Of a DNA stretch of 34,947 bases, positions 1,903 to 32,383 are shown piece by piece. Below the pieces are notes generated by a model, which saw only the letters and a list, made by a program, of their open reading frames with translations, did not search any database and was not told the DNA's origin. How positions within the stretch are numbered: position 1 is the stretch's first letter; the number at the start of each line of letters is the position of its first letter. Origin of the DNA: Candidatus Woesearchaeota archaeon (GTDB lineage: Archaea; Nanobdellota; Nanobdellia; SCGC-AAA011-G17; GW2011-AR20); assembly GCA_018303025.1 (NCBI GenBank), contig JAGVYZ010000016.1, positions 1 to 34,947 of the forward strand, read 5' to 3'. Made by a program: the position numbers and the translations under genes.

Positions 1903-1903
1903 T

Positions 1904-2134: not shown

Positions 2135-2651
2135 TTTCTTCTCCTCTTGTTATTATTTGTATTTTGAATTCTTCTTTTATGAATTTCATTGCTTCTTCTT
2201 TTGTTATTTTATGCTTATTGCTTATTTTTGAAGATGGTCTTCTTAATTTTACCCTGTAACCTGGTTTTTTTAATGTAACAGCTACGTCTAAACCAATGAT
2301 TCCGATTTCTGGCATATATTCTACGCCGGGAATATCAATATATTCTTTTACGCCAAAAGAAAAATTTCCATTTCTGTCAAATTTTCTTTCTGTAATCTTG
2401 TTTTCATTAGCTGCTAGTAATCTCTTTAAAATATCGAATGCTTTTTCATGCCTTAATGTTACTTTTGCAGCAATTGGTAATTTAGGGCGTAAGTTCCATG
2501 TAGGAATTCTTGCCATTGTTATTGTTTTAACTGGAGTGGAATTTGAAATTTTTTGAAGCAACTTAATAGCTTTGTTTAATTTATCTCCTGCTTCTCCTGC
2601 TCCTATATTTAATGTTACTTTATCTATTGTTATTTTCTGCATTGGATTCAT
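2121..2651 (-). CDS. rpl5: Ribosomal protein uL5
   Basis: The 176-residue protein has the family start [23 protein letters not shown], the central [21 protein letters not shown] segment and the [14 protein letters not shown] motif that faces 5S rRNA. The C-terminal part ([21 protein letters not shown]) is the archaeal form. It binds 5S rRNA in the central protuberance. The start overlaps the eS4 stop by 4 nt (ATGA) and its end overlaps uS14 by 14 nt, so it sits in a tightly packed stretch without repeat elements. Confidence 0.97.
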
Positions 2652-3334: not shown

Positions 3335-3794
3335 TTTTTAAGCTCCTTGTAGGGATTGCATCCCTTACGACCCTGCTATTATTCTTCATGAACCTGCCTT
3401 CATTTACGACCCTACTATCTTTCACGAATTCGCTTTTTAAAATTCTTTTTTTATCTTCATACAAAGATGTTACTATTAAATTTGAAGGATCTAAGGGAAT
3501 AAAAGATGTTTTTCCTGTTTTATTGCTTTGAGTTATTCCTTCAATGTAAACTTTCATTTTATTTAACAAAACTTTTTCAATTTTTCCTGATTTACCTTTA
3601 TTACTTCCACGAACAATTTTAACTACATCATTTTTTCTTACAGGGATTGAGCGTCTATTATATTGTTTGATTAATTCTTTTGACAAATGAGAAGAAACCA
3701 TTTTATGCTTAACATGAAGAGGAGCATTCAATCTATACTTTCTCTGTTTTCGAGCTTTTTTGCTGCTTTTCCATTTTAGTGAAAAAAATTTCAT
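3324..3794 (-). CDS. rpl24: Ribosomal protein uL24 with repeat-derived C-terminus
   Basis: I start this at the ATG at 3794 (MKFFSLKWKSSKKARKQRKY), as in archaeal uL24. The four-codon TTG extension upstream overlaps the uL14 stop and is unlikely. The core has the HVKHKMVSSHLSKELIKQY stretch and a KOW motif (VRKNDVVKIVRGSNKGKSGKIEKV) that binds 23S rRNA near the tunnel exit. The last ~35 residues (SEFVKDSRVVNEGRFMKNN, then SRVVRDAIPTRSLKNGK) are encoded by family A units and do not look like the family. They run over the eS4 start by 11 nt. The core would end near residue 121 at SLYEDKKRILK. Confidence 0.94.
   Translation of the reverse strand: MKFFSLKWKSSKKARKQRKYRLNAPLHVKHKMVSSHLSKELIKQYNRRSIPVRKNDVVKIVRGSNKGKSGKIEKVLLNKMKVYIEGITQSNKTGKTSFIPLDPSNLIVTSLYEDKKRILKSEFVKDSRVVNEGRFMKNNSRVVRDAIPTRSLKNGK
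3346..3433 (-). repeat. Family A repeats forming the uL24 C-terminus
   Basis: One hairpin (stem GGGAT..ATCCC in the mRNA sense) and four head units spaced 21, 18 and 18 nt apart lie at the 3' end of the uL24 gene. All spacings are multiples of three and no stop occurs in the uL24 frame. The reading phase (GRFMK, SRVVRDA) is the same as in the other coding copies. Confidence 0.85.
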
Positions 3795-3798
3795 CTTC

Positions 3799-4200
3799 TT
3801 ATACAACTATAGATGCCAATTTTGTAATTGCTGGCCATCTTTCTCCTACTTCTTTGGCTATTGGACCCTTTAAAATAGTTCCCTTTGGGCTTCCTTTATC
3901 GTCTTTTAATACAACTGCTGCATTGTCTTCAAATCCTACTGACAATCCATTTTTTCTTTTGAATTCTTTTTTTTGTCTTACTATAACTGCGTAAACAACT
4001 TGTTTTCTTATTCCAAGCTTTCCCTCTACTACTGATGCCTGGATTAAATTACCAATTCCACCTGCTGCAATTCTTCCTTTTTTTGTTTTTATACCAATTA
4101 CAGAGATGATTCTAAGTGTTTTTGCACCTGAATTATCAGCTGCATTTATTCTTGCACCGAAATTTAATGATCGGATTATTTTTGTTGACATTGCTTTCAT
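3799..4200 (-). CDS. rpl14: Ribosomal protein uL14
   Basis: At 133 residues this is a standard archaeal uL14. It has the INAADNSGAKTLRIISVIG motif near residues 18-36, the YAVIVRQKKEFKRKNG segment and the C-terminal GPIAKEVGERWPAITKLASIVV. It sits at the subunit interface and contacts 23S rRNA and uL19/eL24 neighbours. The ATG at 4200 overlaps the uS17 stop as ATGA. A second ATG three codons later is possible but less well placed for coupling. Nothing unusual is seen in it. Confidence 0.97.
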   Translation of the reverse strand: MKAMSTKIIRSLNFGARINAADNSGAKTLRIISVIGIKTKKGRIAAGGIGNLIQASVVEGKLGIRKQVVYAVIVRQKKEFKRKNGLSVGFEDNAAVVLKDDKGSPKGTILKGPIAKEVGERWPAITKLASIVV

Positions 4201-4514
4201 TTTTCAAATCCTATAACTACAAAACTTTTTGTTTTTGATAATTTTCTACATTCGCCTATTACTACCTTATCTCCTGTTTTTATATCCAAACAAGGAGGAC
4301 AATGAGCATGAATTCTTGTTGTTCTTTTTTCATAACGTTCATATTTAGGCAGGAATTTCAATCTTGGAAATTCTATTGTTGTTGTTCTGAATACATCTAT
4401 TTTTTTTACTTTTCCTGAAAATATTCTACCTCTAACTCTTAATGAGCCGTGAAAAGGACATCTTTTATCCTGGCATTCTTTTTTTGGTTTTTCTATTTTT
4501 ATTCCTGGTTTCAT
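4197..4514 (-). CDS. rps17: Ribosomal protein uS17
   Basis: The 105-residue protein has the archaeal N-terminal motif CQDKRCPFHGSLRVRGRIFSG (equivalent to DPNCPFHG), the OB-fold strand VKKIDVFRTTTIEFPRLKFLPKYERYEKR, and the RIHAHCPPCLDIKTGDKVVIGECR region. It is a primary binder of 16S rRNA in the small-subunit body. It is preceded by a 40-nt gap after rnp1, one of the few non-repeat gaps in this operon, which might hold an internal promoter or processing site, though no convincing box is seen. Confidence 0.97.
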   Translation of the reverse strand: MKPGIKIEKPKKECQDKRCPFHGSLRVRGRIFSGKVKKIDVFRTTTIEFPRLKFLPKYERYEKRTTRIHAHCPPCLDIKTGDKVVIGECRKLSKTKSFVVIGFEK

Positions 4515-4554
4515 TTTTTTGTTTTTTCCTTTTGATTAAACTTTTTTTAAAAGT

Positions 4555-4782
4555 TTATTTTATCCTGTCTTCTGGTTTTTTGATTATTTCTTTACCATTT
4601 ATAATTTGACTACCTATCTTGAATTTAATCTGGGATTTTATCAGATGCTTTGTTTTATTTTTTGCTTTTAAAACAAGCATGTTTTTTGTTTCCCAAATTA
4701 CTTTTCCTTTAAGGCCAATCAAATTTTTGTTATCAGCTTCGATAATTTCAATCTCTTTGCCAATTATCTCTTGTTTTATCAT
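4555..4782 (-). CDS. rnp1: RNase P protein component 1 (Rpp29/Pop4 family)
   Basis: This short 75-residue protein has the Rpp29 Sm-like beta-barrel pattern: IIGKEIEIIEADNKNLIGLKG, then VIWETKNMLVLKAKNK and a final IINGKEIIKKPEDRIK, where PEDR is the family signature. It assists the RNase P RNA in 5' maturation of tRNAs. The position between aIF1 and uS17 is the conserved archaeal location and supports the call. The start overlaps the aIF1 stop by 4 nt. It is shorter than the usual 90-120 residues, with compact loops, as is common in reduced archaeal genomes. Confidence 0.92.
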   Translation of the reverse strand: MIKQEIIGKEIEIIEADNKNLIGLKGKVIWETKNMLVLKAKNKTKHLIKSQIKFKIGSQIINGKEIIKKPEDRIK

Positions 4783-5084
4783 TGAACACTGATTGTATCC
4801 TGGGGAAAGCCGAGTTTTATTAATTCTTGTTTTACTTTGGCTTTATGATCGCCTTGGAGTTCAATTTTGCCGTCCTTGACTGTACCGCCGCATGCAAATT
4901 TTTCTTTCAATGCTTTGGCAATATTTTTTAGGTCAATGTTTTTGTCCAAACCTTCAACTAATGTTGTAAGTTTGCCAAATCGTCTTTTGACAGCTGTTAT
5001 TGTTATCCTCTGATTCTCCTTTGCGATATTCTCCCAGCTACCTAATTCTTTTGGCAGGCCTGTGATCGGGTCTATGTTACCCAT
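4779..5084 (-). CDS. Translation initiation factor aIF1 (SUI1 family)
   Basis: The 101-residue protein shows the SUI1 fold: ITITAVKRRFGKLTTLVEGLD near residues 27-47, then LKEKFACGGTVKDGKIELQGDH with the hallmark FACGGTV, and the C-terminal KQELIKLGFPQDTISVQ. aIF1 helps the small subunit scan or discriminate start codons and keeps the complex in the open state. The gene follows uL29 by 4 nt and overlaps rnp1 by 4 nt. The N-terminal PITGLPKELGSW is typical of archaeal members. GC content is a little higher than in its neighbours. Confidence 0.96.
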   Translation of the reverse strand: MGNIDPITGLPKELGSWENIAKENQRITITAVKRRFGKLTTLVEGLDKNIDLKNIAKALKEKFACGGTVKDGKIELQGDHKAKVKQELIKLGFPQDTISVQ

Positions 5085-5088
5085 CTCT

Positions 5089-5286
5089 TTATTTTTTACC
5101 TCCTTCTTGTTGATTTAAAAAAGTTAATACTCTAGCGATTTCTCTTCTTAATTTTCTAATATTTCCTGGATTTTCCGGAGTAGTACCGGAACTTTTTTGA
5201 GAGTTTAGCTTCATTAATTCTTTTCTTAATTCAACTAATTTACTCTTTTGTTCTTCTTTGTTTCTTGGTTGTTGGTTTTTTTTCAT
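5089..5286 (-). CDS. rpl29: Ribosomal protein uL29
   Basis: At 65 residues it is the size of uL29. Two helices with KLVELRKELMKLNSQKSSGT and a following NPGNIRKLRREIARVLTFLNQQE hairpin match the family, including the conserved IRKLRREIARVLT near the end. It sits at the peptide tunnel exit of the large subunit next to uL23. The ATG at 5286 follows a family A element that fills the gap after uS3. The basic start MKKNQQPRNKEEQ is specific to this lineage. Confidence 0.93.
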   Translation of the reverse strand: MKKNQQPRNKEEQKSKLVELRKELMKLNSQKSSGTTPENPGNIRKLRREIARVLTFLNQQEGGKK

Positions 5287-5357
5287 TTTATATAAGGGCT
5301 GCGCCCTTCATGAACCTGCGCACGAACTTGTGTACGAACCTGCTAAAAAAGCAGTAT
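5287..5357 (-). repeat. Family A repeat in the uS3-uL29 gap
   Basis: In the mRNA sense this has three GCAGGTTCRT-like heads (one is decayed) and one hairpin with stem AAGGGC..GCCCTT and loop GCA, ending just before the uL29 ATG. The gap starts at the uS3 stop with ATGAATA, and uL29 starts ATGAAAA. An original ATGA overlap split and duplicated by the insertion would explain this, but the shared string is only five bases. Confidence 0.8.
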
Positions 5358-6101
5358 TCATGATGTTGCTGTTTCTCCTGTTTTAATTTCATTTACCTTC
5401 AAAGACTTTCTTTTCTTGACTTCTTTTTCTTTTTTTGTATCTTCTTCTATTTTTTCTTCTTTGATTTCTTCGATGATAACTTGAGGTTTTAAATCTTCTT
5501 TAGTTAATTTAAAACGAATGGTATCTGGCAAGATTACATCTGGATGAATTATTTTTACCTGGATACCTATTGCACCTGATTGCAAATGAGCTACTGTCAA
5601 TGCTTTATCTGTGAAACTTTGAGCAACATTTCCTGATTTTTTTAAGTGACCTGCCATAAATCTCCATCTTTTACTTCTGGAACCTGGAACACCTCTTCCT
5701 GAAATTACTATTTCTGCACCAATTGCACCTGCATCAATTATATCTTGGAGAGCTCTGTAACCTATTGATTTGAATCTTTTTGGACCGTATTTTTCAAATG
5801 TTGAAACAATTCTTTCTCCAATTCCTTTTGGATCTAAATTTGGTGATTCAACTTCTGCAACATCAATCTGAGGATTTTCCATTTTGAATTTTGTTTTTAA
5901 AACAGAAGTTAAACTTTGAATATTAGAACCTTTTTTTCCAACGATTAAACCAGGTCTTGAAGTATGAACAATTATTTTTTCACCTAATGGTGTTTTCTTT
6001 AATTCAATAAAACTATAGGAGCCTTTTGGCAATTGAGCTGTTAAATATTGCTCTATTAAAAATGAACGTCTTTTCATTGCTAATATTTCTTTTTCAATCA
6101 T
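5358..6101 (-). CDS. rps3: Ribosomal protein uS3
   Basis: The 247-residue protein has an N-terminal KH type II domain with the GXXG-containing segment RPGLIVGKKGSNIQSLTSVL near residues 49-68, then the C-terminal uS3 domain (SGRGVPGSRSKRWRFMAGHLKKSG and AVTVAHLQSGAIGIQVKI-like motifs). It lines the mRNA entry channel on the small-subunit head. The start overlaps the uL22 stop as ATGA. The last ~40 residues (EEIKEEKIEEDTKKEKEVKKRK) form a charged, probably disordered tail that is not built from the repeats. Confidence 0.97.
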   Translation of the reverse strand: MIEKEILAMKRRSFLIEQYLTAQLPKGSYSFIELKKTPLGEKIIVHTSRPGLIVGKKGSNIQSLTSVLKTKFKMENPQIDVAEVESPNLDPKGIGERIVSTFEKYGPKRFKSIGYRALQDIIDAGAIGAEIVISGRGVPGSRSKRWRFMAGHLKKSGNVAQSFTDKALTVAHLQSGAIGIQVKIIHPDVILPDTIRFKLTKEDLKPQVIIEEIKEEKIEEDTKKEKEVKKRKSLKVNEIKTGETATS

Positions 6102-6604
6102 TTTTTAGTTACCTTCTTTTCTGCAGTAAGGGTTGCACCCTTCACGAACCTGCTTTTATTTTCATTTACTTCTTTTAATATAATCTGGATATGTGTATTT
6201 TTCATTCGTCTTCTTTTTTGCCTTCCTGGATGCCATTGCATTGGACCTTTATTGACTATTATTGAAGAAATGTATAAATTCTGGTTTAAACCAATATTTT
6301 TTGCATTTGCTTCTGCTCCTTTTATTAATCTTAAAATTTCCATACAAGCATTTATTGGAAATTTACCAGGACCTATTGCTGTTTTATGAGCAACTTCCCT
6401 GTCAAATCTTCTATATGGGACTGCTTTTTTCAATGAAATTACTTCTTCTAACATTATTTTAGCTCTCGCTGTTTTTTTATTTCTAATCATATTTGCAATT
6501 TCAACTGAATTTTTAGTTGAGATAGTCAAATTCTTTGCATTAACAACTGCTTGTTTAGTAAGGGTTGCACCCTTCACGAACCCGCTAATATTTTTATCTT
6601 CCAT
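6098..6604 (-). CDS. rpl22: Ribosomal protein uL22 carrying repeat peptides near both ends
   Basis: The core is clear: LTISTKNSVEIANMIRNKKTARAKIMLEEV, then AHKTAIGPGKFPINACMEILRLI and the C-terminal hairpin region MQWHPGRQKRRRMKNTHIQIILKE, which in this family extends into the exit tunnel. Two copies of nearly the same peptide are grafted on: SGFVKGATLT at residues 7-16 and SRFVKGATLT near residues 154-163, both encoded by family A hairpins. Length is 168 against about 150-155 usually. The N-terminal copy follows the ATG by only six codons, so the ancestral start might lie after it. The stop overlaps uS3 as ATGA. Confidence 0.95.
   Translation of the reverse strand: MEDKNISGFVKGATLTKQAVVNAKNLTISTKNSVEIANMIRNKKTARAKIMLEEVISLKKAVPYRRFDREVAHKTAIGPGKFPINACMEILRLIKGAEANAKNIGLNQNLYISSIIVNKGPMQWHPGRQKRRRMKNTHIQIILKEVNENKSRFVKGATLTAEKKVTKK
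6121..6154 (-). repeat. Family A hairpin inside the uL22 C-terminus
   Basis: In the mRNA sense this has the head GCAGGTTCGTGAAGGG, loop TGCAA and return arm CCCTTAC, encoding SRFVKGATLT. It lies after the last conserved uL22 strand (IQIILKE) and about ten codons before the stop, in the same frame as the other coding copies. Confidence 0.92.
6557..6592 (-). repeat. Family A hairpin inside the uL22 N-terminus
   Basis: It starts with GCGGGTTCGTGAAGGG and closes with CCCTTAC, coding SGFVKGATLT directly before the conserved uL22 start region. It is nearly identical at DNA level to the copy at the other end of the same gene and to the copy before uL23. Confidence 0.92.
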
Positions 6605-6678
6605 TTTATATAAGGGCTCCGCCCTTCATGAACCTGGAAAAGCCCTTCATGAACCTGAAATTATTTTTAGTTTCCATT
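6605..6678 (-). repeat. Family A repeat and duplicated start region in the uS19-uL22 gap
   Basis: Two CAGGTTCATGAAGGG heads occur, one followed by a hairpin with stem AAGGGC..GCCCTT and loop GGA. The gap begins right after the uS19 stop with ATGGAAACTAAAAATAATT. uL22 itself begins ATGGAAGATAAAAATATTA. The two stretches match at 15 of 19 positions, so the gap seems to contain a decayed copy of the uL22 start. Confidence 0.82.
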
Positions 6679-7077
6679 TTATCTAGCTGATACTGCTCCA
6701 CTTGATTTTGTAGCGCCTAGACCAGGAGCTGAATGTTCTACTTTTCTTCTTGTCATTGAAAATTCACCTAATCTCATTCCTAACATTTCTGGTTCTATTA
6801 AGACAGGAGAAAATTCCTTTCCATTGTGAATCTGAATTGTTAGACCTACCATTTTTGGTAAAACAATCATATCACGACAATGAGTTTTAACTGGTTTTTT
6901 CCTTACACCTTTTAAGGCTAAATCTATTTTTACTAACAATGCTTTTTGAGCATCTGAAAAACCATGCAATAAAGCTCTTCTGGTTCTACTTGGAACTAAT
7001 TTCATAAACTCTTTAATATCTAATTCTTTTAGTTCTTCTATTGTTTTTCCTCTATATGTAAATTTCTTTAATGCCAT
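6679..7077 (-). CDS. rps19: Ribosomal protein uS19
   Basis: The 132-residue archaeal form has FTYRGKTIEELKELDIKEFMKLVPSRTRRAL at the N-terminus, the RNA-binding KTHCRDMIVLPKMVGLTIQIHNGKEF segment, and EMLGMRLGEFSMTRRKVEHSAPGLGATKSS. uS19 lies on the small-subunit head close to the A-site finger. The ATG at 7077 is one base after the uL2 stop. The tail SSGAVSAR ends at a stop followed by the family A element before uL22. Confidence 0.97.
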   Translation of the reverse strand: MALKKFTYRGKTIEELKELDIKEFMKLVPSRTRRALLHGFSDAQKALLVKIDLALKGVRKKPVKTHCRDMIVLPKMVGLTIQIHNGKEFSPVLIEPEMLGMRLGEFSMTRRKVEHSAPGLGATKSSGAVSAR

Positions 7078-7078
7078 T

Positions 7079-7795
7079 TTACTTTTTCTTACCTCTACCT
7101 GTTCTCTTTGCTCTTATTAATCCAACCTTTCTTCCTGGAGGAGCATTTCTTGGTGCAGTAGCTGGTTTACCCATATGTCTACCTCTACCTGAACCGAATG
7201 GATGGTCTACTGCATTCATTGCAACTCCTGAAACAACTGGATATAATTTATTTTTAGCCTGCATGATGTGGTGCATTTTTCCTGCTTTTAATATTGGTTT
7301 TTCTCTTTTACCTGCACCTGCGATTATTCCTACAACTGCGCGACAATTATCTGGAAATTTCTTTTGTTTTTTTGATGGGAATTCGATTGTAACTTCATTA
7401 TTTAATTTTGAAAGAACTCTTGCTGAACTTCCTGCTGTTCTGCAGAAAATTGGACCTGAACCTGGCAATTTTTCAATTGCACAAATATTTGTATTGTCTG
7501 GAATTTGTGATAATTCCATTATATTTCCTGGTTTTGCTGTATCTAAACCTAATGTAACAAAAGTTCCTTCTCTTACTCCTAATGGAGCTGGAATTACTGC
7601 TTGTGCTCCATTTTCATATTTTATGATTGCTAATGGAGCTGATTTTGAAACATCCCTAACTAAAGTGATTATTTTTCCTACAATTGGATTTTGTTCTGTT
7701 TTTGGGAAATTAAAGAAATATTTAAATCTATGAACCTGCGATCTATAGCGCATTGTTCCTCTTCCCCTTCTCTGACTAATAATATTTTTTCCCAT
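7079..7795 (-). CDS. rpl2: Ribosomal protein uL2
   Basis: The 238-residue protein has the archaeal start MGKNIISQRRGRGTMRYRSQVHRFKYF, the OB-like and SH3-like domains with LPGSGPIFCRTAGSSARVLSK, and the near-C-terminal VSGVAMNAVDHPFGSGRGRHMGKPATAPRNAPPGRKVG. The conserved histidine in AVDHPFGSG needed for peptidyl transfer-centre assembly is present. The gene sits two bases after uL23 (stop at 7797) and one base before uS19. No repeat insertion is seen in this long, highly conserved protein. Confidence 0.98.
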   Translation of the reverse strand: MGKNIISQRRGRGTMRYRSQVHRFKYFFNFPKTEQNPIVGKIITLVRDVSKSAPLAIIKYENGAQAVIPAPLGVREGTFVTLGLDTAKPGNIMELSQIPDNTNICAIEKLPGSGPIFCRTAGSSARVLSKLNNEVTIEFPSKKQKKFPDNCRAVVGIIAGAGKREKPILKAGKMHHIMQAKNKLYPVVSGVAMNAVDHPFGSGRGRHMGKPATAPRNAPPGRKVGLIRAKRTGRGKKK

Positions 7796-7796
7796 C

Positions 7797-8048
7797 TTAC
7801 ATGAAACCTAATTTTGTAGCTACATCAATAGCTGGATTTTCTTTTGATAATTTAGCGTAAACTTTTTTATGTCCTGAATGAGTAATTAATGAATTTATTT
7901 TTTCAATTTTCACATTTAATAATTCTTCTAATGCTTTTTTTACTTCTTCTTTTGTTGCTTTTCTATCTACTATAAATGTTAATTTGTTTTCTGTCTGCAT
8001 TAAGCGGACTGCTTTTTCTGTTGTTATTGGATGTTTTATTGCTTCCAT
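7797..8048 (-). CDS. rpl23: Ribosomal protein uL23
   Basis: From the ATG at 8048 the protein is 83 residues: MEAIKHPITTEKAVRLMQTEN, then LTFIVDRKATKEEVKKALEELLNVKIEKINSLI and the short archaeal end AIDVATKLGFM. This agrees with the family length of about 80-85. An upstream GTG in frame at 8069 would add MKGATLT, but those codons are the family A hairpin, so I reject it as the ancestral start. It could still be used. uL23 sits at the tunnel exit where SRP and other factors dock. Confidence 0.95.
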   Translation of the reverse strand: MEAIKHPITTEKAVRLMQTENKLTFIVDRKATKEEVKKALEELLNVKIEKINSLITHSGHKKVYAKLSKENPAIDVATKLGFM

Positions 8049-8169
8049 TGTAAGGGTTGCACCCTTCACGAACCTGCTATCATTGACAAACTTGCCATCA
8101 TTGACGAACCTGCCAAAAATGCACTGTTCCTGAAGTTACTTAAACCTCCATTTTATTATTGCTTCCATT
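8036..8169 (-). repeat. Family A insertion between uL4 and uL23, flanked by a 14-nt duplication
   Basis: The sequence AATGGAAGCAATAA (mRNA sense) occurs twice: at 8169-8156, directly after the uL4 stop, and at 8049-8036, where it is the true uL23 start. Between them are decayed head units, a clean head GCAGGTTCGTGAAGGG and hairpin AAGGG..CCCTT. Removing one copy plus the middle would leave a one-base gap between uL4 and uL23, the normal spacing in this operon. This is the clearest insertion footprint of family A in the window. Confidence 0.85.
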
Positions 8170-8967
8170 TTACATGAATAATTTTTCCTTTTCTAATTTT
8201 TCAATTGCTGATTCTGAATATATTGTTAATCTTCCTGCTTGTGTACCTGGAGCTAATAATTCTGCATTGATTTTATTTATTGAAACTATTTCCAAACCCT
8301 GAATATTTGAAACTGCTTTTACTAATGGGCAGTTTTTTGAAACTACAAACAAAGGACCTTTTTTTATTCTATATTTTCTTCCTCTGAATTTTCCTTTACC
8401 TGGGCGAATTTTTTTACTTTCTGTTCTTGCTATTTCATCTTTTAATCCTAATTTATTTAAGACTAGCATGACTTCACTTGTTTTCTTTAAGTCTTCTATT
8501 GCTGGAATTACTATTAATGGGAAATTTGTAAATCTATGATTTCTTAATTTAACTAAAGTTTCATTTAATGTAGCGGATAATGCTGAGCGAATTGCTTTTC
8601 TGTTTTCTTTTACATTTACTTTTACTTTTCTATTTTTACTTGCTTTAGGTGGATGAGCTTTTCTACCGCCTTTGGTACCTGGAACAAAAGCACCTTCCCA
8701 TGCAAATTGAGAACCTCTATGCCACATTGTTTTTCTAGCTACTCTGGACATTCCTTTACCATAAGAACCTTTGTAATCTTTTCTTCTTCTTGAAATGTCA
8801 ACTGCTTGTCTTTTACCTGCTTCTGGATATGCTCCATAAGGCTGTCTTTTGTTTTCTCTTATTGCTAAAACAGCTCGTTTAATTAAATTAGGATGATATG
8901 GCTCATTGAATTGCTCTGGTGTTTTTATTTCTTTTACTTTATTACCTTGTAAATCTAAGACTTTCAT
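8170..8967 (-). CDS. rpl4: Ribosomal protein uL4
   Basis: From the ATG at 8967 there are 265 residues, the archaeal length. Motifs are MKVLDLQGNKVKEIKTPEQF at the start, KRQAVDISRRRKDYKGSYGKGMSRVARKTMWHRGSQFAWEG with the RGS tunnel-loop region, GGRKAHPPKASKNRKVKVN, and C-terminal LLAPGTQAGRLTIYSESAIEKL. A longer frame begins at 8985 with MESLLK, but that ATG is inside a family A hairpin. uL4 reaches the exit tunnel and in some organisms regulates the operon. No such site can be shown here. Confidence 0.96.
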   Translation of the reverse strand: MKVLDLQGNKVKEIKTPEQFNEPYHPNLIKRAVLAIRENKRQPYGAYPEAGKRQAVDISRRRKDYKGSYGKGMSRVARKTMWHRGSQFAWEGAFVPGTKGGRKAHPPKASKNRKVKVNVKENRKAIRSALSATLNETLVKLRNHRFTNFPLIVIPAIEDLKKTSEVMLVLNKLGLKDEIARTESKKIRPGKGKFRGRKYRIKKGPLFVVSKNCPLVKAVSNIQGLEIVSINKINAELLAPGTQAGRLTIYSESAIEKLEKEKLFM

Positions 8968-9047
8968 TTTAAGTAAGGATTCCATCCTTTACGAACCTGG
9001 TACGAACCTGCAACCATGTTCTTTTTTTGTTTTTATTTAATTTCATT
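8968..9047 (-). repeat. Family A repeat in the uL3-uL4 gap
   Basis: Two head units (GCAGGTTCGTA and CAGGTTCGTAAAGG) and a hairpin with stem AAGGAT..ATCCTT and loop GGA end 5 nt before the uL4 ATG. The string TTAAAATGAAA is present at both ends of the gap, once just after the uL3 stop and once at the uL4 start, resembling the start-site duplication seen before uL23. Confidence 0.82.
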
Positions 9048-10041: not shown

Positions 10042-10140
10042 GAAGCTTTCTTTTTGCGAAAAGAAAGCTTCAGCAAAGAAAAAGCTGAATGGAAAACCTT
10101 CAGGAAAAAGAACATTTTGGAAAGAAAACACTTAGAAAAG
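10042..10140 (+). repeat. Family B hairpin repeat between uL3 and histone promoters
   Basis: A perfect 13-bp inverted repeat (arm GAAGCTTTCTTTT, loop TGCG) at 10042-10071 is followed by AAAACCTTCAGGAAAAAG and further AAAGAAAA runs. The same layout of hairpin, CCTTMRGG and A-rich AAAGAAA occurs in the tRNA-Glu introns, the tRNA-Gly intron, before rsmA and elsewhere. It fills the divergent intergenic region between two TATA boxes. Confidence 0.85.
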
Positions 10141-15706: not shown

Positions 15707-15825
15707 GTTTCCTTTTAATTAACGATGGGTTTAAATGTTTTTTTATTTGATTTTTTCATAATACAAAAATTTATAATTGGTTTTTTTAATCTGTTATTAA
15801 TGCTCCTGTAGTGTAGCTCGGTCAA

Positions 15826-15902
15826 ATAAGCTTTCTTTCTGTAGAAAGAAACCTTAAGGAAAGAAAGACCGAATGACTTAAGGAAGAAAGAGCTTAGACC
15901 AT
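15826..15902 (+). other. tRNA-Glu intron 1, D loop (position ~21/22)
   Basis: The central helix GGTC:GACC is flanked by bulges AAA (cut AA^A) and ATT (cut AT^T), with inner helix TAAGC:GCTTA. The body has the family B hairpin TTTCTTTC-TGTA-GAAAGAAA followed by ACCTTAAGGAAAGAAAG. Excision restores a D loop of the expected length. Confidence 0.85.
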
Positions 15903-15939
15903 TCACTCGACCCTCTCACGGTCGAAACCTGGGTTCAAA

Positions 15940-16008
15940 AGAAGCCTTTTCTTGTAAGAAAAGCCTTCGGGGAAAAGAACACCTTGAAGAAAGAAAAGCT
16001 TCTGGAAG
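15940..16008 (+). other. tRNA-Glu intron 2, T loop (position ~59/60)
   Basis: The central helix TTCA:TGGA (one G.U) has bulges AAA (AA^A) and AGT (AG^T) and inner helix GAAGC:GCTTC. The first ~40 nt align with the repeat before rsmA: AGAAGCCTTTTCTTGTAAGA here against AGAAGCCTTTCTTTTGTAAA there. Excision leaves loop TTCAAAT. Confidence 0.88.
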
Positions 16009-16029
16009 TCCCAGCAGGAGCAGTACTTT

Positions 16030-16140
16030 TTCTTTCTGTAGAAAGAAAACCTACGCTAAAAGAAAGACACAAGAAAAAACCTACACTAAAAAAGAAGCAA
16101 TTAGAAAACCTACACTAAAGAAAACACTTGAAAGAAAATA
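16030..16140 (+). repeat. Family B copy with tandem CCTACACTAAA units
   Basis: The hairpin TTTTCTTTC-TGTA-GAAAGAAAA is followed by three copies of AAACCTACRCTAAA separated by A-rich spacers, directly behind tRNA-Glu and before the PAP2 gene. The CCTACRCTAA core replaces the CCTTMAGG core of other copies, suggesting local duplication and drift. Confidence 0.75.
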
Positions 16141-16169
16141 TTAAATAACCTTAATTCTTCAAACTTTTA

Positions 16170-16742
16170 ATGAAAAAAGAGTATTTAATAAAAGGAATCT
16201 GGTTTTTTGCAATATTTCTTTTAATTTATACTATTGTTAATATGCTTTCAATTGGAAGAAGTTATTTTCATTTTGCCTTTGCTTTTGAGGAAACTATGAA
16301 GGTTATTCCTGTATTTTTGATATTTTATGTTTCGTCTTATATCATAATTGCAATGCCTTTTTTTGTTTTGAAAAGAAGCTATGAAATAAGGAAATTAGTT
16401 TATGTTTATTGGACAATTGCCATTATTTCCTTTATTATTTTTTTATTGATTCCTGCGAAAGTTGTAAGACCTGTTGTTATTGATGGATTTTTTGCATGGG
16501 TGCTTAATACCTTCTGGACTTATTTTGATTTGCCTTATAACTCATTGCCTTCTTTGCATATTTCTTTGAGTTTTGCTGCTGCTTATTTAATGAGAAAACA
16601 TCTTAATTTTGTTTATTTACTCTTATGGGTTTTACTAATTGCTATTTCAACCATACTAACTAAACAACATTATATCTTAGATATTGTTACTGGATTAGCT
16701 TTAAGTATTCTTGTTTTAAGCCTCTTTAGAAAAGAGCCTTAA
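16170..16742 (+). CDS. PAP2-superfamily membrane phosphatase
   Basis: The 190 residues have about six membrane helices. The PAP2 catalytic motifs are visible late in the protein: YNSLPSLHISLS (the PSxH motif, with the acid/base histidine) and STILTKQHYILDIVTG (the final H..D motif with the nucleophile histidine). The first motif, K..RP, is represented by AKVVRPVVIDG. These enzymes dephosphorylate lipid or isoprenoid phosphates at the membrane. A polyprenyl-phosphate or phosphatidyl substrate is possible but not shown. The stop lies 23 nt before the first duplicated start of rsmA. Confidence 0.85.
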   Translation: MKKEYLIKGIWFFAIFLLIYTIVNMLSIGRSYFHFAFAFEETMKVIPVFLIFYVSSYIIIAMPFFVLKRSYEIRKLVYVYWTIAIISFIIFLLIPAKVVRPVVIDGFFAWVLNTFWTYFDLPYNSLPSLHISLSFAAAYLMRKHLNFVYLLLWVLLIAISTILTKQHYILDIVTGLALSILVLSLFRKEP

Positions 16743-16763
16743 GGGAGAAAAATAATTTAATCA

Positions 16764-16849
16764 AAATGATAAAATATGACCATCAGAAGCCTTTCTTTTG
16801 TAAAAGAAAACCTTCAGGGAAAGAAAACAGAAATGATAAAATATGACCA
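16764..16849 (+). repeat. Family B insert bracketed by a 19-nt direct duplication at the rsmA start
   Basis: AAATGATAAAATATGACCA occurs at 16764-16782 and again at 16831-16849, where it is the true rsmA start. The 48 nt between are a family B copy (AGAAGCCTTTCTTTTG, hairpin, CCTTCAGGGAAAGAAAA). The first ATG (16766) opens a 26-codon reading frame that runs through the element and stops inside the second copy. Confidence 0.9.
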
Positions 16850-17534
16850 GCATTTTATGATTGATGAAGAACTAATTAAAAGAATTGTTAGCTACTTAGA
16901 TATTCAACAAAATGAAAGTGTTATTGAAATTGGTGCTGGAAATGGAGCTTTATCTTCTGAATTATATACTAAAACTAAAAATTTAAATTTAGTTGAAATT
17001 GATAAGGAATTGATTTCTGGATTAAAAGAGAAGTTTAAAGATGTAAAAATTCTTAATAAAAATGTTTTAAACATGGAGTTGAAGTATGACAAGATAGTTG
17101 GTAATATTCCTTATAACATTTCTGAACCTCTGTTTAATAAATTATTAAAAAGTAATTTTAAGAAAGCTATATTTACTGTTCCTAATAATTTTTTAATTTC
17201 ACCTCTTTTGAATAAACTAATGAATACATTTTTTAAAATTGAAACTTTGGAGATCGTGGATAAAGATAAGTTTAAACCTAAACCCAGAGTTTTATCTAAA
17301 GTTATTTCTGTTGAGCATAAAAAATTAAATGACAATGAAAGAATATTGAAAGAGGTTTATATTAACCAGACTAAGAAATTAATGAATGCTTTTGAAGATG
17401 CTTATTTTCATGTTTTGAAATTATCTAAAAAACAAACTAAAGAGAAAATTCCTGCTTTTGAATTTTTAGAAAAAAGAGTTTACATGTTGAATACTAAAGA
17501 GATGAGTAAAATTGTTGAGTTCTTGAATATTTGA
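16833..17534 (+). CDS. rsmA: 16S rRNA dimethyladenosine transferase RsmA/KsgA/Dim1
   Basis: From the ATG at 16833 the protein is 233 residues: MIKYDQHFMIDEELIKRIVSYL (the QHF.ID start typical of the family), SAM motif I VIEIGAGNGALSSEL, acidic VEIDKELI, motif IV NIPYNISEPL, and FTVPNNFL. It dimethylates two adenosines in the 3' hairpin of 16S rRNA during small-subunit maturation. An earlier in-frame start at 16776 would prepend residues from the inserted repeat and is rejected. The length is short against the usual 260-280, with a trimmed C-terminal domain. The duplicated start upstream leaves a decoy ATG. Confidence 0.94.
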   Translation: MIKYDQHFMIDEELIKRIVSYLDIQQNESVIEIGAGNGALSSELYTKTKNLNLVEIDKELISGLKEKFKDVKILNKNVLNMELKYDKIVGNIPYNISEPLFNKLLKSNFKKAIFTVPNNFLISPLLNKLMNTFFKIETLEIVDKDKFKPKPRVLSKVISVEHKKLNDNERILKEVYINQTKKLMNAFEDAYFHVLKLSKKQTKEKIPAFEFLEKRVYMLNTKEMSKIVEFLNI

Positions 17535-17588
17535 TTATATATTTAAGATTATAATTTTGCTTTTAAATTGTGAAAGTTTACTTTTTTC

Positions 17589-17993
17589 ATGGAAACAATA
17601 AAAGATTCTCCCATATCTGGAACCCTTAAGGGTTTGTATATGGAAACACCACATAGCGACTTGGACATGACACCTGAACAATTTACAGATGCTGTTGCTA
17701 ATTATAGCTTTTATACTTACAGCAGAGCAAATACTTCTTTTGCTGAAGGTTTTAATGATTTAATTGCTAGAGAAACACATTATCATCTGGAAGATAGAGG
17801 CTATTGCTTCAATGGAATATTCTTTAAGGGATTATCTACTGAAGATTATGAAAAAGCAAGAGGTACAATACTTCAAGCATTTGTTAATCGTACTATAGAA
17901 ATCTTAGAAAGAAAAAGAAGATTAGATAATCATTGCTTAGAAGTCAATTTAAGACGCCATATTAAACCTGTTAAATCAGTTGAAACTGTTTAA
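17589..17993 (+). CDS. Protein of unknown function
   Basis: I do not recognise this 134-residue protein. It is soluble, with a polar N-terminus (METIKDSPISGTLKGLYMET), an aromatic central part (NYSFYTYSRANTSFAEGFNDL) and a helical, basic C-terminus (AFVNRTIEILERKRRLDNHCLEVNLRRHIK). No signal peptide or membrane segment is seen. It lies on the same strand as rsmA with a 54-nt gap, so a separate promoter is possible. A T-rich tract after the stop may end transcription before tRNA-Val. Confidence 0.5.
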   Translation: METIKDSPISGTLKGLYMETPHSDLDMTPEQFTDAVANYSFYTYSRANTSFAEGFNDLIARETHYHLEDRGYCFNGIFFKGLSTEDYEKARGTILQAFVNRTIEILERKRRLDNHCLEVNLRRHIKPVKSVETV

Positions 17994-18043
17994 TTTTTCT
18001 TTTTTTGATATTTTTATAAAGTCTGATTTTTTAGTTTTCTTAT

Positions 18044-18115
18044 GAGCTCGTGGTCTATTGGTATGATTTGACCCTCACACGGTCAAGGTAGCAGGTTCGA
18101 TTCCTGCCGGGCTCA
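18044..18115 (+). tRNA. tRNA-Val(CAC)
   Basis: The acceptor GAGCTCG pairs with CGGGCTC (one G.U) and the discriminator is A. The anticodon stem TGACC/GGTCA closes loop CTCACAC, anticodon CAC. The T arm is GCAGG-TTCGATT-CCTGC. It has no intron. It is one of only two uninterrupted tRNA genes in the window. Confidence 0.95.
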
Positions 18116-18117
18116 AG

Positions 18118-18124
18118 TTTTTTT
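18118..18124 (+). terminator. Oligo-T terminator after tRNA-Val
   Basis: Seven T residues start three bases after the tRNA-Val end, as expected for archaeal termination. It also separates the gene from the convergent tRNA-Gly. Confidence 0.45.
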
Positions 18125-18157
18125 ATAAATCCTCTTGATGAAAGAAAAAAGATTAAA

Positions 18158-18283
18158 TGCGCCAGCCGGGACTTTCGCAGCTTTGTTCTCTTTTCCGAAG
18201 TTTTCTCTTGTAAGAGAAAAGCTCATTCGAACCCGGGCCGCAGCCTTGGGAAGGCCGCATAATAACCACTATACTACTAGCGC
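18158..18283 (-). tRNA. tRNA-Gly(CCC) with one T-loop intron
   Basis: On the minus strand the acceptor GCGCTAG pairs with CTGGCGC (one G.U) and the discriminator is A. The anticodon stem CGGCC/GGCTG closes loop TTCCCAA, anticodon CCC. The T stem CCGGG/CCCGG with loop TTCGAAT forms after removal of 54 nt. It is convergent with tRNA-Val. Confidence 0.93.
18172..18225 (-). other. tRNA-Gly intron, T loop, family B type
   Basis: The central helix TTCG:CGAA has bulges AAT (AA^T) and AGT (AG^T) and inner helix AGCTTT:AAAGCT, with one G.G mismatch at its base. The body has the hairpin TTTTCTCT-TACA-AGAGAAAA followed by CTTCGGAAAAGAGAACA, the same order as in tRNA-Glu intron 2 and at the same site. 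Confidence 0.87.
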
Positions 18284-24774: not shown

Positions 24775-24820
24775 ACTAATATTTAAGCTAAGAATTAATT
24801 TAAAAGAGTTTTCTTTTGAG

Positions 24821-24848
24821 GTAAGGGCTCCGTCCTTCACGAACCTGC
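24821..24848 (-). repeat. Family A copy outside the ribosomal operon
   Basis: The head GCAGGTTCGTGAAGG and an imperfect hairpin (AAGGAC, loop GGA, GCCCTT with one mismatch) lie between tRNA-Asn and the unknown gene at 24894. It has the same strand orientation as its neighbours, here downstream of the 24894-25622 gene rather than in a leader. A short A-rich tail like family B follows at 24850-24880. Confidence 0.8.
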
Positions 24849-26363: not shown

Positions 26364-26421
26364 TAAGCTTTTTCTTTAGAAAAGAAAAACCTTAAGGAAA
26401 AAGAAAATTAACTAAGAAAAC
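26364..26421 (+). repeat. Family B copy between the HTH gene and top6A
   Basis: AAGCTTTTTCTTTAGAAAAG forms a hairpin and is followed by AAAAACCTTAAGGAAAAAG, the hairpin-plus-CCTTAAGG layout of the tRNA-Glu D-loop intron, then an A-rich AACTAAGAAAAC. It lies upstream of the HTH gene promoter and downstream of the top6A stop. Confidence 0.75.
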
Positions 26422-26423
26422 TT

Positions 26424-27509
26424 TTACTCTAAAAATTCCTTGTTTTTTATCTTTTCAGGAAGATAGTGTTCTGAAATGAATGAAATGCCTTTTGCTGATA
26501 AGGACTGAATTTCTACTTTTCCATTTAATTCTTTCATTATTTTAAACTGGCGCTGCCATTCCTTGTTGTCTTTAAACCAATCGTATTCTGTTACTTGCTT
26601 TATTCTTGCTATATCCTGCTCTGTTAATTTGATTAAGTGCCTTTTCAAATCATATTTAATAACATCATCCATTGTTATTCCAATATATTTAACACTTGGA
26701 ATTGTCAATCTTTCTGATGCATGAGCTAATGCTATTGAACCATATTTAACAACTGAATAAATATATGCTCCGTAGACATCACCATCACATAGAACATAAA
26801 TTGGAAGAGATTCTTCTTCTGCTAATCTTTGAAGTAATCTTCTTATTCCTCTAGTTGTCTGGCCTTGTGAAGTAACTAAGATGCAATTATTTTTTTGCCA
26901 GAATTTATCTTCATTTAATCTTTCAAAAATAGCTGCTTTCTCCATGTATAAAACGTATTTTGCACTTACTTTTTTTAATTCTAGTTCATCTGTAATTGAA
27001 GGAATGGAGTAACCACCTTTTCCTAATTTTGAGCAATCTATAACATCTCCTGAATCTCCTAAAATAACATTGCCAACCATGCTACCCATTTTATTTGCTG
27101 ATACATGAAGCTCTTCTCTTGAAAGTCCTGTAATAACTTCTAAATCTTCTATTGCTTTATCAGTTTCTGTTTGTTCATCTACTAAATTTACATTTGTTTT
27201 AGGGATAGTTCTTTTAGTCATATAGAAAACACCTCTAAGATGCTCGTGTTTTCCTGATTCTAAAAGTTCTTTTTTAATTACAGAAGCGACTTCTACTGTT
27301 TGGAGAAATTTTTTTGCATGAGCTAAATTAAAGAAACTTCTTGAAGATGTTTTATCTCCTAATTTCAATGTTCTTGTTTTTTTATCATAAATTATATTTG
27401 TTAAATTTCTTAATCTAAAAACTATTTCCGGGTTTTTTCCTTTTTTTACCTGGTCAACTAGTTTTTTACCTAAGTTTTCCAATACTTCTTTTTGATTTGA
27501 TTTTGTCAT
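26424..27509 (-). CDS. top6A: DNA topoisomerase VI subunit A (Spo11-like)
   Basis: This is the DNA-cleaving subunit of the archaeal type IIB topoisomerase. Its 361 residues have a winged-helix CAP domain with the catalytic tyrosine in LRGVFYMTKR (Y96), then the Toprim domain with acidic residues in LYMEKAAIFERL (E190) and VLCDGDVYGAYIY (D242, D244) and the LVTSQGQTTRGIRRLLQRL segment. Length is normal. The ATG overlaps the top6B stop by 4 nt, the conserved B-then-A order, so the two chains are co-translated. It decatenates and relaxes DNA in an ATP-dependent A2B2 complex. Confidence 0.97.
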   Translation of the reverse strand: MTKSNQKEVLENLGKKLVDQVKKGKNPEIVFRLRNLTNIIYDKKTRTLKLGDKTSSRSFFNLAHAKKFLQTVEVASVIKKELLESGKHEHLRGVFYMTKRTIPKTNVNLVDEQTETDKAIEDLEVITGLSREELHVSANKMGSMVGNVILGDSGDVIDCSKLGKGGYSIPSITDELELKKVSAKYVLYMEKAAIFERLNEDKFWQKNNCILVTSQGQTTRGIRRLLQRLAEEESLPIYVLCDGDVYGAYIYSVVKYGSIALAHASERLTIPSVKYIGITMDDVIKYDLKRHLIKLTEQDIARIKQVTEYDWFKDNKEWQRQFKIMKELNGKVEIQSLSAKGISFISEHYLPEKIKNKEFLE

Positions 27510-30500
27510 TCTATTTCATCCATTATTTTTTCTTTTTGCTCTTTTGCTGGCTTAGCTTCTATGTTATTTTCTAATAATAAATCTTTAAGACCTTTCTTTA
27601 GTATTTTTTCTAGATTTTCTTCTATTTCTGATTTTTTTTCATTGCTTAAATTGCTTAATGCATTTGCTAATTCTGGAATATATTTTTCAAACAAATCAAT
27701 TTTTTCTCTTTGTTCTTTTGCCCTTACATTTTTTCTTATAAAAGAACCGAGTTCTCTTCCTGCATCCTGCAAGGCAAGTTTAATTTCTTTTATTATTTCT
27801 GGATATTGGGCTATTGCTTCTTTACTTTCTGATGTAAATGGAACCCAGACAGATGTAATTTCAATTAACAAAACCAAAGGACCTACTGGCAATGCTCCTC
27901 TACTCTGGCTTAAGCCATAATTAACCCATTTTGTTTTTACAACTGAATTTGTTGTTGCACATGCTGATTGCTGATATAATAAAGGAACTCTATTTGCAAA
28001 TCTCATTAAATCTACTGGTTCATCTTTTGGAATATTTCCACCATAAGCCAAGCCAACTTCTATAATGAATGGATTTCCTCTATAGACTGATGTTGGCCTT
28101 GTAACTGCTGTATAAAAATCAGCTTGGATTTCTTTTTTCAATCCTTTCAGTATTAATTCTTCTCCTAATGGAATAACTGAATCAGTAGGAGGAGACATTA
28201 TTTTTGTTGCATTAATTGCTTTGTATAATGCATCTGCTTCTTCTCTTGCTATTCTATCTGGATGTGATTTTTCATATAATCCTGCTGTCTGACAAATTTC
28301 ATGGGCTACTTTTGATGAAACCCTGCAAAAATCTGTTTCTAAAAATGATTGGAGTGTTTTTGCACTTGTTTCTCTAAGCATTTTTATTAAAATGCCTAAT
28401 TCTATTCCATGAGGATGAGGTTTGATTTCTTTTGATTCTTTTGGTAATTGATTAGTAGCTCGAGGAAATTCTTTAATTTCATTTTCTGGATTTTTGTAAA
28501 TTAAAAATAAATGAGGATTTACTATTGCTGTTTGCTCTAAATATTCATCTATAGATTGCCTTCCTTTCTGGTATTTTGCCTGGAGTTCAATTTCAATCCT
28601 TGTTCCATGCTCTTTTTCCCAATCAATTATTCTTTCTGCTGCTATTTCTGGCTCGTTCTTTTTTGTGTCTAAATGAAGTTCGAAATAATGAGCTGGCTTG
28701 TTTTTTCCTGTTTTAGAAATAATTTTTATTGGCTTTCCTGTTGTCAACTGACCGTACATTGCTGATGCTGAAATTCCTATTCCTTGCTGGCCTCTTGAAA
28801 CTCTTAGTCTATGAAATTTGCTACCATACAATAATTTTCCAAAAATTTTTGGAATCTGCTCTTTAACTATTCCGGGACCATTATCTTCTACTACTATTAT
28901 GAACCTGTCTTCTGTGACTGGATTTACCTCTACTTTTATATCTGGCAATATTTTTGATTCTTCACATGCATCTAAAGAATTATGACAAAGTATTGCTCCA
29001 ACACCTGCAACAAAGTTTTCACAGTTAGGTACTGAAACATCATATACCCATTCATGATTATATTGAATCTCTTCTATGCTTTTAACTCGCAAAATACCAA
29101 GGTCACTTTCCAAAAGAGTTTCTACTCCTTTGTAAATGTTTATGCTTTGAGCGCATAATCCATTTTGCAAGACTTTGAAAGAAATATTATTTTGATTGCT
29201 TCTATTTATAGAATAGCTGATTTTTGAATCTGATGTGTTAATTATTGTATCTTTAATTGGCAGTAAGTTCAAATGACTACTTTCACGATTTGTATAGATA
29301 TATATTTGATAACTTTTTCCATACAATGTTTTAATATTGTTAATTACTCGTGGTTTTTCTTTTGTCATGCCTGTGCTATAACTAAAACCCATGGAAGATA
29401 ATAAGTATTGTAAATCAGTAAATAGCTGAAAACTTGCTGTAGCGCAAGTTATTTTCTTTGCATCGATTTCATCCAATGTTAAATCATTTTTTAATATTTC
29501 AAATAATTTCTTACTTGGATAACCATCGCCAGCAAGATATGCCAATAGGAATGAATATCTGAGATTATAACTAAAATTATGCACAATATCCGGTATTCTC
29601 TTGGAGTTTGCGTAATCTCCTACTTTAAAAATGTGCTTAAAAATAAAACAAATTATGCTGGAATTAGCAATAATATTATATGCTGTACTATGGGCTTTTT
29701 TGATTTTCGGAGAAACTTTAAAAATCTTTTCGAATGAATCAGACAAATAATCTACTATTTCTTTTTCATGAATGCCAAAGGAAAAATGAATTCTGTTTAA
29801 TGATTTTAACATAGACCCTTCTGATACATAAAATCCAAGTAATTCTGCGAATTTATTATTTACTTTTATGATTACTGGTATTTTATGAGGACTATATAAA
29901 TAACCCAACTTGGAATCTGAAAGTTTATTAATATCTATTTTAAGTTTCCTAAGAACATTAAATGGAATATAATTGAATCTTCTAAAATCATTAATTCTGT
30001 ATCTGGATTCTGAAAAAAGCTCTTTTAATTGATTATTTATATCATCTGTAAAAATATTATTAATTCCATGGAGAAATATTTTTTTAGTGAGATTTGGATC
30101 AAGCATTAAAAGTTCTTCAATTAAATTTATTTCATTTGTATCATAATTACTGTTCCAGCTTTTTCTTGGGACAATTATCGGAGTACCAACTTTAATGGCA
30201 GATGTTGGAATAGAAATTATTTCTCCCTGGTTTATTGTAAATATTGAATGATAAGCAGTAAGGTCTATATATCTTCCTGAAGTGAGCTTTATCCTATAGA
30301 TTTTGCTATTTACTTTATGCCTAAATAATGTTGAAACAGGATGAAGAGACAATTTTAATGTTTTTTTATCAAAAGCCAAGACTTCGATAGTTTCCTGTAC
30401 TGGAAGTTTTTCTAAATTACCTTTTCGTAATGTATAAACCTTATTTTGAGCTTTTTCTAGTTCAGTGTCGATAAGTTCTCCTATCTTTGTTAGTAATATT

Positions 30501-30685
30501 TTTCCTTTTTTTCTGATAAGAATGGGCATATCATATGTCAAGCTATTATCTACTGCTTCTTTTATTGTTGTTAACAATGCTTTTCTTGGATTATCAAAAC
30601 CGAGCAAATGCTTATTTTTTACAAAAAATTCTGAGATTGAAATTTCTCTTTGTGATTTTGCCAGGTCTTCTGCTGTTAATGACAT
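27506..30685 (-). CDS. top6B: DNA topoisomerase VI subunit B interrupted by an intein
   Basis: This is the ATP-driven clamp subunit of topoisomerase VI. The precursor has 1059 residues. Removing residues 48-569 leaves 537, the normal size. The host has the GHKL Bergerat fold: N box EAVDN directly joined to SLDACEES after splicing, then VVEDNGPGIVKEQIPKIFGKLLYGSKFH and GQQGIGISASAMYGQ. An H2TH domain, a transducer domain (GNPFIIEVGLAYGG) and a C-terminal helix follow. The intein splits the catalytic N box between Asn47 and Ser570, so the unspliced protein cannot bind ATP. The stop overlaps top6A by 4 nt. A TTTATAAAC box sits about 27 nt before the ATG. Confidence 0.96.
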   Translation of the reverse strand: MSLTAEDLAKSQREISISEFFVKNKHLLGFDNPRKALLTTIKEAVDNSLTYDMPILIRKKGKILLTKIGELIDTELEKAQNKVYTLRKGNLEKLPVQETIEVLAFDKKTLKLSLHPVSTLFRHKVNSKIYRIKLTSGRYIDLTAYHSIFTINQGEIISIPTSAIKVGTPIIVPRKSWNSNYDTNEINLIEELLMLDPNLTKKIFLHGINNIFTDDINNQLKELFSESRYRINDFRRFNYIPFNVLRKLKIDINKLSDSKLGYLYSPHKIPVIIKVNNKFAELLGFYVSEGSMLKSLNRIHFSFGIHEKEIVDYLSDSFEKIFKVSPKIKKAHSTAYNIIANSSIICFIFKHIFKVGDYANSKRIPDIVHNFSYNLRYSFLLAYLAGDGYPSKKLFEILKNDLTLDEIDAKKITCATASFQLFTDLQYLLSSMGFSYSTGMTKEKPRVINNIKTLYGKSYQIYIYTNRESSHLNLLPIKDTIINTSDSKISYSINRSNQNNISFKVLQNGLCAQSINIYKGVETLLESDLGILRVKSIEEIQYNHEWVYDVSVPNCENFVAGVGAILCHNSLDACEESKILPDIKVEVNPVTEDRFIIVVEDNGPGIVKEQIPKIFGKLLYGSKFHRLRVSRGQQGIGISASAMYGQLTTGKPIKIISKTGKNKPAHYFELHLDTKKNEPEIAAERIIDWEKEHGTRIEIELQAKYQKGRQSIDEYLEQTAIVNPHLFLIYKNPENEIKEFPRATNQLPKESKEIKPHPHGIELGILIKMLRETSAKTLQSFLETDFCRVSSKVAHEICQTAGLYEKSHPDRIAREEADALYKAINATKIMSPPTDSVIPLGEELILKGLKKEIQADFYTAVTRPTSVYRGNPFIIEVGLAYGGNIPKDEPVDLMRFANRVPLLYQQSACATTNSVVKTKWVNYGLSQSRGALPVGPLVLLIEITSVWVPFTSESKEAIAQYPEIIKEIKLALQDAGRELGSFIRKNVRAKEQREKIDLFEKYIPELANALSNLSNEKKSEIEENLEKILKKGLKDLLLENNIEAKPAKEQKEKIMDEIE
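28979..30544 (-). mobile_element. Intein with LAGLIDADG homing endonuclease in Top6B
   Basis: The 522-residue element begins SLTYDMPILIRKKGK (Ser1 nucleophile, splicing block A) and ends VAGVGAILCHN, with the terminal His-Asn of block G followed by host Ser570. The block F-like segment EWVYDVSVPNCENFVAGVG is clear. Two dodecapeptides, LLGFYVSEGSML and LLAYLAGDGYPS, mark a two-motif homing endonuclease. A block B-like TAYHS is present. All splicing residues seem intact, so it should be active. Endonuclease acidic residues (E in VSEG, D in AGDG) are also present. Confidence 0.95.
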
Positions 30686-32360: not shown

Positions 32361-32383
32361 AAGATGCTTTAACTTAATTTTTT

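Follow-up and report, generated by a model that had tools for sequence, protein, structure and literature searches.

How does a repeat that lies scattered between genes also come to sit, as an intron, inside tRNA genes? The question is raised by a 34,947-nt stretch of DNA, called the window here, which is one contig (C28) of a genome of 1.06 Mb with 30% G+C. An earlier note on this DNA had proposed a common architecture for both introns of a tRNA-Glu gene, the intron of a tRNA-Gly gene and copies at 10042, 16030, 16783, 26364 and 33841; all of these are real, a further copy at 16722 can be added, and the case for the observation is stronger than had been stated. The reading which we favour, with a probability of roughly 0.6, is that this repeat, family B, is a gene-less mobile DNA repeat family which is tolerated in tRNA genes through splicing and which is so far confined to Woesearchaeota and Pacearchaeota. 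The features in and beside the two tRNA genes are as follows.

15802–16022, plus strand: tRNA-Glu(CTC) gene with two introns; predicted spliced product 75 nt
15826–15902, plus strand: tRNA-Glu D-loop intron, 77 nt, with a triplex motif at about 15828–15867
15940–16008, plus strand: tRNA-Glu T-loop (59/60) intron, 69 nt, with a triplex motif at about 15941–15978
16023–16066, plus strand: trailer-subtype triplex motif (GTACT-Y-R-CCTACGCT-R'), directly after the tRNA-Glu 3' end
18158–18283, minus strand: tRNA-Gly(CCC) gene with one intron; predicted spliced product 72 nt
18172–18225, minus strand: tRNA-Gly T-loop (59/60) intron, 54 nt, almost wholly triplex motif (18187–18220)

The copy listed at 16030 is thus a member of the family, as had been claimed, though one of the tRNA-trailer subtype (GTACT...CCTACGCT), and decayed units follow it to about 16130. 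Elsewhere in the window (27506–30685, minus strand) there is an ORF of 1059 amino acids resembling topoisomerase VI subunit B which, by eye, contains an apparent intein.

A motif with three co-varying arms

Copies of family B are roughly 35–45 nt long and run in the order KAAGC, Y arm, 3/4-nt loop, R arm, CCTTMRGG and R' arm, with R being the reverse complement of Y and R' mirroring R; the opening bases pair with the linker as well (GAAG/CTTC, TAAG/CTTA, CAAG/CTTG). The sequences of the arms vary from copy to copy with R' tracking R, and the AAAGAAA with which the repeat had been said to end, whilst present, is not fixed: it mirrors the right hairpin arm and co-varies with it, a relationship that had been missed. 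In those copies where the two can be distinguished, a mirrored third arm outnumbers a directly repeated one by 27 to 3, and by 9 to 0 where the arms contain at least two G, which rules out a plain direct repeat forming a two-state RNA hairpin.

This is the arrangement of a class II (purine-motif) intrastrand triplex, Y-R-R', a pyrimidine arm being followed by a purine arm and then by the mirror image of the latter. With stems of 6–15 nt and short loops, the copies qualify as potential intrastrand triplex (PIT/TM) motifs, with the proviso that the second loop (the linker) is usually 6–8 nt, slightly above the 1–6 nt limit of the published PIT finder; folding into an actual triplex is predicted. 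As purine-motif triplexes are formed by DNA and not by RNA (Holder et al., 2015; PMC4666352), the third arm would most simply be a DNA-level feature, and the co-variation of three arms in a triplex-type motif suggests that selection or copying acts on a DNA strand in its folded form.

Introns in tRNA genes

The tRNA introns examined have a good bulge-helix-bulge (BHB) splice site, with a 4-bp central helix and 3-nt junction bulges. In the D-loop intron of tRNA-Glu this consists of a GGTC/GACC helix, bulges AAA and ATT and an intron helix TAAGC/GCTTA, and it also appears in the predicted fold; removal of the intron would join GGTCAA to TCAC, as in the paralogous tRNA-Glu(TTC). The T-loop intron of the same gene is bounded by the T-stem CTGGG/CCCAG, a bulge AGT, the helix TTCA/TGGA, a bulge AAA and GAAGC/GCTTC, and that of tRNA-Gly by a TTCG/CGAA central helix paired at all four positions and a 6-bp intron helix, its mirror arm pair being AGAGAAAA/AAAAGAGA. 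Taking out both introns restores a normal tRNA-Glu sequence on the predicted splicing, and at the T-loop junction the intron-free form agrees with the intronless tRNA-Glu found upstream of rsmA in a relative (G001), to which part of the 3' exon, AACCTGGGTTCAAATCCCAGCAGGAGCA, is identical. The proposal of a shared tRNA site holds for the two T-loop introns, the first intron of tRNA-Glu being in the D-loop.

Across the genome, T-loop (59/60) introns bearing the motif are found in 13 tRNA genes (Glu twice, Gly three times, Leu three times with one gene lacking its 3' exon, Ser, Trp, Lys, Ala and Val), with near-identical introns common to the Glu, Ser, Leu, Ala and Val tRNAs. Motifs also lie inside the anticodon-loop introns of tRNA-Asp, tRNA-Glu(TTC) and tRNA-Ser, and motifs of the trailer subtype come directly after at least five other tRNA genes of the sample. 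This bears out the earlier observation that the repeat is both intergenic and intronic; its intron sites are the D-loop, the anticodon and the T-loop. The central helix is complete in nine of 12 T-loop introns of this genome, complete in two more after a one-base shift of the boundary, and paired at three of four positions in one; it agrees with the exon, TTCA occurring with TGAA or TGGA and TTCG with CGAA. A splicing endonuclease gene was found in this genome. Two genes show gaps: a tRNA-Leu has no 3' exon after its T-loop intron (L053 6100–6260) and a tRNA-Ser has neither the 5' half of the T-stem nor a motif (L049 18600–18920), for which deletion, a split tRNA or an assembly that skipped the folded motif may account.

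Copies outside tRNA genes

The remaining features in the window are intergenic copies and the sequences that flank the copy at rsmA.

10042–10082, plus strand: intergenic triplex motif, upstream of an L3-type gene and antisense to it
16718–16750, plus strand: short triplex motif, TAAGC CTCTTT aga AAAGAG CCTTAAGG GAGAAA, overlapping the stop of the upstream ORF
16764–16785, plus strand: 22-nt direct repeat, left copy, flanking the element upstream of rsmA
16786–16826, plus strand: triplex motif inserted at the rsmA start
16831–16852, plus strand: 22-nt direct repeat, right copy, holding the native start codon of rsmA, an ATG at 16833
26364–26406, plus strand: intergenic triplex motif, TAAGC TTTTTCTTT aga AAAGAAAAA CCTTAAGG AAAAAGAAA
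33843–33880, plus strand: intergenic triplex motif, TTTCTTTT taca AAAAGAAA cctcgt AAAGAAAA

Copies outside tRNA genes that adjoin a stop codon are in the sense orientation in 12 cases and antisense in 2, and those adjoining a start codon in 4 and 0. Such a bias, together with the occurrence of one subtype directly 3' of tRNA ends and stop codons, is what would be expected if the motif were a functional nucleic-acid signal (a terminator, a 3'-end processing site or a 5'-leader) selected at the ends and starts of genes, with the introns and trailers being simply transcribed spacers. We consider this unlikely, however, as copies also lie upstream of the last exon within tRNA genes, where termination would be harmful, relatives of the same family manage without the motif, and a mirrored third arm is unexpected in an RNA signal. 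The mobile repeat which we favour does, for its part, need an added assumption to account for the sense orientation of most copies.

Empty sites and older introns in relatives

The check for empty sites which the earlier note had recommended was informative. In seven relatives rsmA has a single start and no motif, and the right-hand repeat of the window matches the ATG...GACCAGCA start of these relatives; the orthologous initiator tRNA genes of two genomes of one genus (G028 and G043) differ by exactly one 40-nt T-loop motif intron. These differences between relatives indicate insertion. A scan of the genome contigs for close relatives of rsmA confirmed none. Nine relatives of the same family have an uninterrupted T-arm in their matched tRNA-Glu genes, and the Glu T-loop intron thus looks like a gain.

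Not every intron began in this way. Short T-loop introns (12–38 nt) free of the motif are present in the tRNA-Ala, Cys, Lys, Arg, Leu and Ser genes of same-family relatives; the short-gap pattern by which they were sought is noisy, controls being as frequent as matches, and only cases with a predicted spliced tRNA were therefore counted. Two relatives have 12-nt T-loop introns, in tRNA-Cys and tRNA-Arg, that comprise little beyond the splice motif (L140, L146). An Asp-Lys tRNA pair upstream of a gene resembling RNA polymerase subunit H looks syntenic by inspection; here the tRNA-Lys T-loop intron is 63 nt with a motif, compared with 26–31 nt in the relatives, and the tRNA-Asp intron holds a motif, compared with about 13 nt. 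Motif-free short introns are ancestral in the family in some tRNAs, the syntenic tRNA-Lys being among those that have them, so that some copies of family B colonised existing introns whilst others are probably new gains.

These older introns lend something to a scheme without any mobility, in which A/G-rich spacers and introns that are already there acquire and lengthen the motif in place through strand slippage and template switching. T-loop introns are already present in the tRNA-Lys, Ala, Cys and Arg of relatives, tandem forms occur (L008, L213, L233), decayed arrays lie downstream of many copies and the flanking duplications vary in length, all of which would suit such growth. Nevertheless it is improbable: a mirror repeat cannot come from DNA copying, the linker and ends are the same (KAAGC, CCTTMRGG) in different species, and the motif is precisely missing at orthologous sites. 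A gene-end signal and in-place A/G growth are the main rivals, and neither jointly explains the mirror arm, the consensus across species and the precise empty sites.

The recurrence across species extends beyond the family of the source genome, as family B is also present in other families of the same order, in G043 (mainly in T-loop introns) and in G053. Among 84,980 prokaryote species, a strict 26-base consensus matched 10 stretches, all from Woesearchaeota or Pacearchaeota (DPANN) and occupying T-loop and D-loop tRNA introns and spacers, and the closest named carriers of the element are Woesearchaeota. From these carriers, and from the order which the genome of the window shares with G043, whose contigs are among the matches, a place for the window in DPANN would follow. 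Carriage by viruses was rejected, as no exact match turned up in 2.9 million viral contigs. G039 was dropped as an independent carrier, as its contig is 99.1% identical to one from G043 (L214 and L218) although the two genomes are placed in different families, which is probably the result of mixed binning.

Flanking duplications and the probable level of mobility

The two 22-nt sequences at rsmA (16764–16785 and 16831–16852) are identical at 21 of 22 bases, and direct repeats also abut copies in L008 (41 nt), L006 (12), L052 (12) and L002 (13). Flanking repeats with a score of at least 12 were found at 5 of 78 elements, compared with about 0.9 expected from re-paired flanks. The duplications range from 12 to 41 nt and flank a minority of copies, and so do not have the fixed length that marks transposon targets; no terminal inverted repeats were seen at the family B elements examined.

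The duplications at some intergenic copies do, even so, indicate a DNA-level event and are not expected from reverse splicing, which the earlier note had offered as one of two routes, with excised introns reverse-splicing into other RNAs and then being copied back into DNA. The near-identical introns at position 59/60 of different tRNAs, the sense orientation of most copies and the existence of a reverse transcriptase gene in the genome would all suit such a route. The sole reverse transcriptase adjoins a gene which, by eye, resembles a diversity-generating target (L189, G000 C52:26311–26928, the likeness lying in the C-terminus of the neighbouring ORF), and, taken with the duplications, this leaves RNA-level mobility very unlikely. 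The other route, a small transposable element surviving because it is spliced out, fits most of the data, with the amendment that some copies entered old introns.

Abundance compared with chance

Motif densities were computed on a 403-kb sample of the genome, in which perfect three-arm motifs number 54; dinucleotide shuffles contain 2, and the reversed (class I) arrangement occurs 4 times. By contrast, 399 kb from ten same-family relatives yielded 1, with 3 in their shuffles. A strict pattern search of the whole genome, of the kind that had been called for, returned 24 copies and none for the reversed pattern; the same pattern had no matches in 12 same-family genomes. Within the window, arms scoring at least 7 mark 9 sites, compared with about 0.15 per dinucleotide shuffle, and the likeness of tRNA-Glu intron 2 to the rsmA copy, which the earlier note had pointed out, survives shuffling, with a local alignment score of 26 where the best of 500 shuffles reached 15. 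The idea that family B consists of A/T-rich hairpins arising by chance, which a genome of only 30% G+C might invite, is refuted, since shuffles, reversed patterns, the class I control and similarly A/T-rich relatives yield almost no copies.

Comparison with known systems

Short dispersed hairpin repeats near genes are familiar from the REP/RAYT and Rickettsia palindromic elements, which family B resembles in this respect. To our knowledge, neither of these has a mirror arm or occurs as a spliced intron.

The closest structural counterpart is TM_ECO (BoxC), a set of potential intrastrand triplex elements of E. coli and other Proteobacteria (PMC4666352; Hoyne and Maher cited therein), which likewise has the class II order Y-R-R' and short loops, occurs in dozens of dispersed copies and is patchily distributed between close relatives. 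TM_ECO is, however, G/C-rich and is described as always intergenic, with no strand bias and no link to mobility (PMC4666352), whereas family B has A/G arms, a sense bias and a place in archaeal tRNA introns; its arms of T/C and A/G, with few G, do not match the TM_ECO sequence CCCTCNCCC...GGGNGAGGG...GGGNGAGGG, and tRNA goes unmentioned in Holder et al. (2015; PMC4666352).

With the archaeal BHB introns at non-canonical tRNA positions, including 59/60, family B shares position, BHB geometry and the splicing endonuclease, but it differs from those introns (reviewed in PMC4090602) in that the intron body is a repeat also found outside tRNA genes. The tRNA intron transposition of Thermoproteales (Fujishima et al., 2010, cited in PMC4090602) is alike in placing near-identical introns at the same site of different tRNAs, although it concerns a different phylum and, as far as we know, an unrelated intron sequence, and no intergenic counterpart appears in the account used here. 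In Caldiarchaeum tRNA-Thr (PMC3293823) intron gain is likewise linked to insertion, but of a 1.8-kb recombinase-coding unit, whereas family B is of about 40 nt and has no genes.

A probable mobile repeat tolerated by splicing

On the mobile-repeat reading, new copies would enter DNA through an event in which the folded single strand is recognised or exploited and a little target DNA is duplicated. Those in tRNA genes may owe their survival to excision by the tRNA splicing endonuclease, having either landed in an existing intron or brought BHB-compatible ends, and intron copies could then spread among tRNA genes at the same T-loop site. Against this stand the lack of a clear flanking duplication at most copies, the varying length of the duplications, and motif-free T-loop introns that are ancestral in some tRNAs. 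A single Y1 transposase and a single reverse transcriptase are encoded in this genome, neither of which could be linked to family B; the Y1 transposase is unsupported as the mobiliser, being present in one copy with no motif in the roughly 2-kb locus examined.

A second repeat, family A (GTAAGGGTTGCACCCTTCACGAACCTGC and its reverse complement), lies at 295–9021, 24805–24847 and 32331–32793 of the window, mostly with its sense on the minus strand. The 403-kb sample of this genome contains 30 copies of it, the 399 kb from relatives none. It is positioned at the starts of ribosomal-protein genes, sometimes in frame (GFVKGATL). It also forms the anticodon-loop introns of tRNA-Trp and tRNA-Gly(GCC) (L055 40–130; L063 2300–2400), so that this genome has tRNA introns made of two repeat families which look unrelated.

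Where tRNA introns come from has long been asked, and for those which archaea have newly gained the source is mostly unknown. As the body of the intron is here also a free-standing repeat, and as its presence or absence differs within a genus, the birth of introns can be traced site by site. It may be, although we put this forward tentatively and at somewhat under even odds, that family B represents a new class of mobile element, one which has no genes, moves as a DNA strand folded into three arms and doubles as a spliceable archaeal tRNA intron, thereby making and spreading new introns in DPANN archaea. Family B offers one of the rare views of the way in which new introns may come about and multiply.
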